Below are positions 6,686-32,006 of a stretch of 33,262 bases of DNA, piece after piece. The stretch comes from Thermodesulfovibrionales bacterium (GTDB taxonomy: Bacteria > Nitrospirota > Thermodesulfovibrionia > Thermodesulfovibrionales > CALJEL01), in the NCBI GenBank assembly GCA_026417875.1, contig JAOACK010000015.1, positions 1 to 33,262 of the forward strand, written 5' to 3'. The stretch's first letter is position 1; each line of letters opens with the position of its first letter. The notes beneath the pieces are model-generated. The model saw only the letters and a program-made list of their open reading frames with translations. It ran no database searches and had not been told where the DNA came from. Both the position numbers and the translations under genes were made by a program.

Positions 6686-6690
6686 GGAAT

Positions 6691-6723
6691 ATTTTACAAT
6701 ATTTTTAAAAATTGTGGTATCAT
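6691..6723. promoter_or_regulatory. Compact divergent promoter region for glyQ and hemH
   Basis: Leftward (glyQ): TAAAAT on the minus strand (6691-6696), 5 nt before ATG 6685; no convincing -35. Rightward (hemH): TTTACA (6693-6698), 19 nt, and extended -10 TGGTATCAT (TATCAT 6718-6723), 5 nt before ATG 6729. The leftward -10 and rightward -35 overlap, so polymerase should occupy only one direction at a time. Confidence 0.45.
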
Positions 6724-6728
6724 ATACA

Positions 6729-27956: not shown

Positions 27957-30492
<2,536 letters not shown>

Positions 30493-30498
30493 AATTTT

Positions 30499-30506
30499 AT
30501 TATAAT
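30499..30506. promoter_or_regulatory. Symmetric double -10 shared by pncC and the HAD-like gene
   Basis: ATTATAAT holds a perfect TATAAT on each strand (plus 30501-30506, minus 30499-30504). The plus copy ends 5 nt before ATG 30512 and has TTACAA (30477-30482) 18 nt upstream. The minus copy ends 6 nt before ATG 30492. The whole space between the start codons is 19 bp, so both messages should be leaderless and exclude each other. Confidence 0.55.
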
Positions 30507-30511
30507 ACCAT

Positions 30512-31219
30512 ATGCTCATTTTTAAGACAGGCTCTATCTTTTTCTCCTTCCTTATCTCGCTACTCCTATCCTCTATCTCCTCGGCTGCCATAAATGTTGA
30601 GGACAGACTCTGTATAGCTGGCGATGAGATTATGCTCAGCGCAGAGATAAGAAAGGGCCTTTTCAGAAAAGGCGGGGTGATTGTGGAATTTTTTATTGAT
30701 GGCAGGTCAGCGGGCAGAAGTCTTTCAGGTGGTGATGGAGTTGCCTACAGAGCTTTCACTGCGCAGAAAACAGGGCTTTTCAGAGTCACTGTGACGACTG
30801 AAGAGGAAAGGGCAGAAGGACTCTTGCTCTGTCTTAAAAGAGGACAGGCTATATTGCTCATTGATATCGAGACACTTAAGGAAAATCCCTTTTCTCTAAT
30901 ACCCCGAAAGGATAGCAGAGAGGTTATCAGGAGGCTCAAGAGAAGATTTCCTGTTGTTTATCTCTATGCTGGTTTGATGTCCGGAAAGGACATTAAAGAG
31001 TGGCTGATGAAAAATGGATTTCCTTCAGCACCTTTACTTGCTTTTCATGAAGGTATATTTTCTCATATTCAGGAGCTCGGTCTTGCAATCAGGGCAGTTG
31101 TTGGTTCGGCTCAGGTTGCCAAGAGTGCAGGTTCATACAGAATCAAGACCTTTGCCTTTGAAGATATAGAGGGAGCTATCGAGGTTGACTCCTGGCTTGA
31201 GCTTGAGAAAAAAATATGA
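30512..31219 (+). CDS. Exported protein: beta-sandwich plus degenerate HAD-like domain
   Basis: 235 aa. An N-terminal signal peptide (about 1-25, ending SSAA) is followed by a beta-rich, Ig-like segment (28-108) and a domain (112-180) resembling the DUF2183/LNS2-type HAD phosphatases. The first strand ILLIDIETL has D118 and T121, but the second acidic residue of D-x-D-x-T is E120; VVYLYAGLMSGKDIKEWLMKNGFPSAPLL matches the usual strand 2 and P-x-G-P-like turn. The lysine and late Asp motifs are not obvious, so catalysis is doubtful. It could be a binding protein or a weak phosphatase. It has no Shine-Dalgarno and begins right after a TATAAT. Convergent with the next small gene. Confidence 0.6.
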   Translation: MLIFKTGSIFFSFLISLLLSSISSAAINVEDRLCIAGDEIMLSAEIRKGLFRKGGVIVEFFIDGRSAGRSLSGGDGVAYRAFTAQKTGLFRVTVTTEEERAEGLLLCLKRGQAILLIDIETLKENPFSLIPRKDSREVIRRLKRRFPVVYLYAGLMSGKDIKEWLMKNGFPSAPLLAFHEGIFSHIQELGLAIRAVVGSAQVAKSAGSYRIKTFAFEDIEGAIEVDSWLELEKKI

Positions 31220-31951: not shown

Positions 31952-31992
31952 TTTAATAATTTTAAAACCTTTTTAATTAAAAAAACAAGATA

Positions 31993-32001
31993 TGCTATAC
32001 T
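31993..32001 (+). promoter_or_regulatory. Extended -10 promoter of the UPF0114 gene
   Basis: TGCTATACT, with TATACT at 31996-32001, then 5 nt and ATG 32007. Predicts a leaderless message and decides the start. Confidence 0.5.
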
Positions 32002-32006
32002 ATTTT

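Follow-up and report, generated by a model that had tools for sequence, protein, structure and literature searches.

Bidirectional promoters, in which one near-symmetric -10 element serves divergent transcription start sites, have been described (Warman et al., Nat Microbiol 2021, as cited in PMC10268837), and in E. coli the distance between the two start sites of such promoters is most commonly 18 bp, with 10 and 23 bp also common (Warman et al. 2026, PMC12825309). At these promoters, a polymerase bound in one orientation excludes one bound in the other (PMC12825309). Leaderless genes with a -10 element adjoining the open reading frame are also known (Zheng et al. 2011, PMC3160421; Deinococcus-Thermus study 2025, PMC12340547), and the relevant passages of these two papers concern single genes, with neither divergent pairs sharing one box nor Nitrospirota among them. 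In M. tuberculosis, where divergent promoters lying side by side are described as common, both mRNAs of the divergent pair prpD (Rv1130)/Rv1129c are leaderless according to mapped 5' ends (Cortes et al. 2013, PMC3898074). Here we describe a 19-bp spacer in a Thermodesulfovibrionales genome that is probably a symmetric bidirectional promoter, with both predicted start sites at the start codons and 20 bp apart. The window (i.e., the whole stretch of DNA that was analysed, 33,262 nucleotides) is contig 15 of this 2.0-Mb genome, and the features concerned are as follows:

27957-29990, minus strand: ligA (NAD-dependent DNA ligase), overlapping the end of pncC and presumably co-transcribed with it
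29983-30492, minus strand: pncC (nicotinamide-nucleotide amidase; Pfam CinA; TIGR00199 PncC_domain above cut-off), leaderless candidate
30493-30511: spacer between the two ATGs, 19 bp, AATTTTATTATAATACCAT, proposed bidirectional promoter
30499-30506: palindromic octamer ATTATAAT, its own reverse complement, read directly from the sequence
30499-30504, minus strand: predicted -10 TATAAT of pncC-ligA, 6 nt upstream of the pncC ATG and within the range enriched genome-wide (5-8 nt)
30501-30506, plus strand: predicted -10 TATAAT of the exported-protein gene, 5 nt upstream of its ATG, which is the genome-wide peak distance
30512-31219, plus strand: gene for a 235-aa family-less protein with a signal-peptide-like N-terminus, leaderless candidate

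Direct reading bore out the geometry that the earlier note had described, namely a 19-bp divergent spacer (30493-30511) with a symmetric TATAAT lying 5 nt (plus strand) and 6 nt (minus strand) from the start codons, which occupy 30512-30514 on the plus strand and 30492-30490 on the minus strand (CAT on the plus strand). Both hexamers are perfect and overlap by 4 bp (TATA), one -10 element thus being readable on either strand, and the full perfect palindrome is TATTATAATA (10 bp, 30498-30507). No Shine-Dalgarno (SD) sequence was found upstream of either start in this AT-rich 19-bp spacer. The start-site distance predicted from the geometry is 20 bp; the divergent start sites of bidirectional promoters lie on opposite strands within about 7-25 bp of each other.

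The start of the plus-strand gene at 30512 is fixed by an in-frame TAA inside the spacer, with no other start codon nearby. Its product matched no Pfam or NCBIfam family, and relatives of this exported-protein family occur in 14 of 41 genomes of the order; the nearest relatives of LigA are MAGs filed under Nitrospirota, including Thermodesulfovibrionales. The two divergent genes had been called essential-type, a description that fits only ligA, downstream of pncC; pncC is usually not essential, and the plus-strand gene encodes an uncharacterised exported protein. PncC removes NMN and LigA releases it, so that co-transcription of pncC and ligA would be sensible; no reason is evident for coupling the pair with the exported-protein gene.

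We then considered whether leaderless genes form a class in this genome, using a sample of 1.19 Mb taken as stretches, in which genes were called by a simple codon-usage script rather than a full gene finder, so that individual starts in the following genome-wide counts may be wrong. Exact TATAAT occurred 5-8 nt upstream of 61 starts (about 8 expected), with a sharp peak 5 nt before the first ATG (32, against a background of 1.9 per position). The box and an SD were found together at only 3 genes, whereas 437 genes had just an SD and 127 just the box. A TATAAT peak at this distance that almost never coincides with an SD indicates that leaderless genes are a real class here, and roughly a tenth of genes are leaderless candidates, with promoters that appear to lean on the -10 element. 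An alignment of these genes anchored at the box has T at -5, TG at -3/-2, TATAAT and then A+T, with only a weak TTG at an 18-bp spacer. A TATAAT peak at a similar distance is also present in the congener (G001) and in two genomes of other families (G021 and G012), and several families carry a TATAAT-like box just upstream of the pncC ATG (e.g., L122 and L111). Gene finders that rely on an SD readily misplace leaderless starts.

Divergent pairs with a -10 element (at least 5/6 matches) 4-9 nt before both starts and a spacer of at most 60 bp were then counted against 500 dinucleotide shuffles of all candidate divergent spacers in the 1.19 Mb. Such elements preceded both starts in 13 of 110 divergent pairs (1.2 expected; none of the 500 shuffles reached 13), and 4 of the pairs had spacers of at most 25 bp (0.56 expected). 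Perfect TATAAT in both directions over at most 25 bp was seen in 2 pairs (0.022 expected; no shuffle of 500 reached 2): pncC with the exported-protein gene, and pdxA/tyrS, whose 21-bp spacer (L070:18705-18725; G000:C12) contains this octamer too, as part of the 14-bp palindrome GTTATTATAATAAC. Within 400 kb of each genome, G021 and G012 both showed 3 such pairs, where about 0.2 would be expected, and ATTATAAT is present in one of the G021 pairs. The arrangement at pncC had been regarded as extreme, which is less well supported, given 13 divergent pairs with a -10 element beside both starts, one of them with the same octamer. The two further short-spacer pairs are not of equal standing with these: at cdaA/FixH-like (spacer 15) the box is conserved, but the FixH-like gene is probably leadered, because AAGGAGG precedes one of its later ATGs, and amidohydrolase/ZIP (spacer 22) is tentative only, as the alignment of its spacer with the congener did not reach the partner gene.

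Three divergent pairs with a -10 element at both starts lie within the one 33-kb window. Besides the pair at pncC, glyQ and a ferrochelatase-like gene diverge over 43 bp (6686-6728), with TAAAAT and TATCAT 5 nt before the starts and a spacer largely kept in the congener, where the hemH-side start is less clear; RNase H-like and UPF0114 genes diverge over 55 bp (31952-32006), with TAAAAT and TATACT, and this spacer is well kept in the congener.

Conservation was compared in one congener (G001, very probably the same as L002), whose spacer AATTTTATTATAATACCAC is of equal length and identical at 18 of 19 positions, while the pdxA/tyrS spacer is identical at 20 of 21; all four start codons of both pairs are kept. 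Against fourfold-degenerate sites, 49% of which are identical between the two genomes, these identities are improbable (p = 3e-5 and p = 8e-6, respectively), whereas against the mean coding identity of 78% the p values are only 0.06 and 0.04. Two unbroken matches of 23 nt are the longest in the region, one of them spanning the octamer and the pncC start. The check that the earlier note had proposed, conservation of the octamer in relatives, thus came out in its favour (n = 1), and its reading of two leaderless starts around a symmetric -10 element is supported, as a prediction, by the genome-wide statistics and by the conserved spacer and starts. Retention of the box in the sister species and the further such pairs in the genome also argue that the shared-box pattern is real. 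Conservation between relatives is not a defining feature of symmetric -10 bidirectional promoters.

Outside the genus, the plus-strand gene is not beside pncC, has other neighbours and shows no -10 element at its start, whereas TATAAT-like boxes precede pncC in several families; on these sequence comparisons the pairing is genus-specific and the putative leaderless habit is wider. The exact 6/5 geometry proved unsuitable as a phylum-wide marker: CATN6ATTATAATN5ATG had 11 matches in 296 genomes (2 for a backwards control), with clear genes on both sides only in the two congeners, and the rest look like chance. Among the 294 other genomes of the phylum the motif occurs about 0.03 times per genome, and no match lay between two clear protein genes. 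The sequence CATAAGAT(T/C)ATTATAATGACAGATG is shared by three genomes (L253, L254 and L255) from two families of the phylum, with no clear protein genes on either side, and is perhaps part of another conserved element.

Several other readings of the octamer were weighed. It might promote in one direction only (e.g., pncC-ligA via TGGTATTAT or TATAAT), the second -10 element being its mirror image, which we regard as unlikely; it is likewise unlikely that, as this reading entails, the other gene has its promoter inside the opposing gene or is hardly transcribed. TATAAT is nearly symmetric, so that mirror matches arise easily, a TGn can be read directly upstream of TATTAT on the minus strand of the spacer, and the plus-strand gene does without an adjoining -10 element where it has other neighbours. 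However, its ATG lies here exactly at the 5-nt peak of the leaderless class, it has no SD, and the congener retains both the spacer length and the plus-strand start even though about 48 nt are inserted just after the beginning of this gene, whose product is only 61% identical between the two species.

Alternatively, the palindrome could be the operator of a dimeric regulator, instead of or besides a promoter element, as the perfect palindromes at pncC (10 bp) and pdxA/tyrS (14 bp), both kept in the congener, would allow. We consider this improbable, since two overlapping TATAAT boxes explain most of the palindrome, the 13 divergent pairs have the -10 position in common but no longer palindrome, and no regulator was identified. 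Even less probable is that pncC starts further upstream inside the opposing gene, with the octamer mainly coding for an N-terminal extension. The pncC frame is indeed open upstream of 30492 (ATG 30591), for 84 codons in this genome and for 100 in the congener, and the two species have WYYNKIMK in common; yet ATG 30492 is the only start codon in the aligned stretch that both species share, and in other families the PncC N-terminus falls at roughly the matching position. Moreover, five codons with synonymous alternatives (TAT TAT AAT AAA ATT) are all identical, although fourfold sites agree at only 49%.

Under the favoured reading of a symmetric bidirectional promoter, the housekeeping RNA polymerase would bind and melt the one palindromic -10 element in either orientation, and transcription would start at the A of the start codon (30512 on the plus strand, 30492 on the minus strand) or no more than about 3 nt away. 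Starts at these positions would make both mRNAs leaderless, and the pncC-ligA or the exported-protein transcript would each be translated without an SD. Because the two hexamers share four base pairs, polymerases would be expected to exclude each other and the genes to compete. A -10 element adjoining a start codon is no proof of a leaderless mRNA, and activity in both directions is predicted from the octamer.

For each direction, the upstream promoter contacts would lie within the opening codons of the opposing gene. The earlier note had placed the -35 elements inside the opposing genes, which holds as geometry, although in this genome leaderless promoters depend chiefly on the -10 element and only weakly on a -35. 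A conserved -35 was sought and rejected: hexamers at 15-20 bp spacers match TTGACA at 1-4 of 6 positions, and those of the plus direction are not kept in the congener. The -35 would thus be weak or absent and the promoter carried by the -10 element. Within ATTATAAT, a TGn in register with TATAAT is ruled out because position -2 must be A; the palindrome therefore excludes the TGn that the genome favours, one or both directions may be weak, and symmetry may have been bought at the cost of promoter strength.

If both transcripts start at the start codons, the 19 bp would be close to the smallest possible divergent control region, with no untranslated RNA, and would offer a natural test of gene coupling via polymerase exclusion at a symmetric -10 element, without regulators or leaders. 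We also put forward, tentatively and with somewhat more doubt than confidence, that the head-to-head pairs of these Nitrospirota whose spacers measure roughly 15-25 bp make up a recurring class of minimal bidirectional promoters, leaderless on both sides, in which one palindromic -10 element would be the whole non-coding control region and polymerase exclusion would couple pncC-ligA, pdxA and tyrS to their neighbours. The genome would also place a Nitrospirota lineage among the groups in which leaderless genes are numerous.

A literature search, mostly without subscription papers, returned none on double-leaderless genes sharing one -10 element. Compared to the E. coli bidirectional promoters, the predicted 20 bp falls within the range of start-site distances; two perfect hexamers do not fit geometrically into the 18-bp form, but they do fit into ATTATAAT, which places the sites 20-21 bp apart. 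The locus differs from the promoters of Warman et al. in that the predicted start sites are the start codons, the hexamers are perfect and no non-coding sequence is left outside the box beyond the few flanking bases of the spacer, bidirectional activity being a prediction here. The likeness drawn to prpD/Rv1129c concerns double leaderlessness, with starts mapped experimentally there and predicted from sequence here. Overall, precedents exist for bidirectional -10 promoters, for leaderless genes and for a divergent pair with two leaderless mRNAs, so that this spacer is a compact new instance of known promoter types and not a new type.
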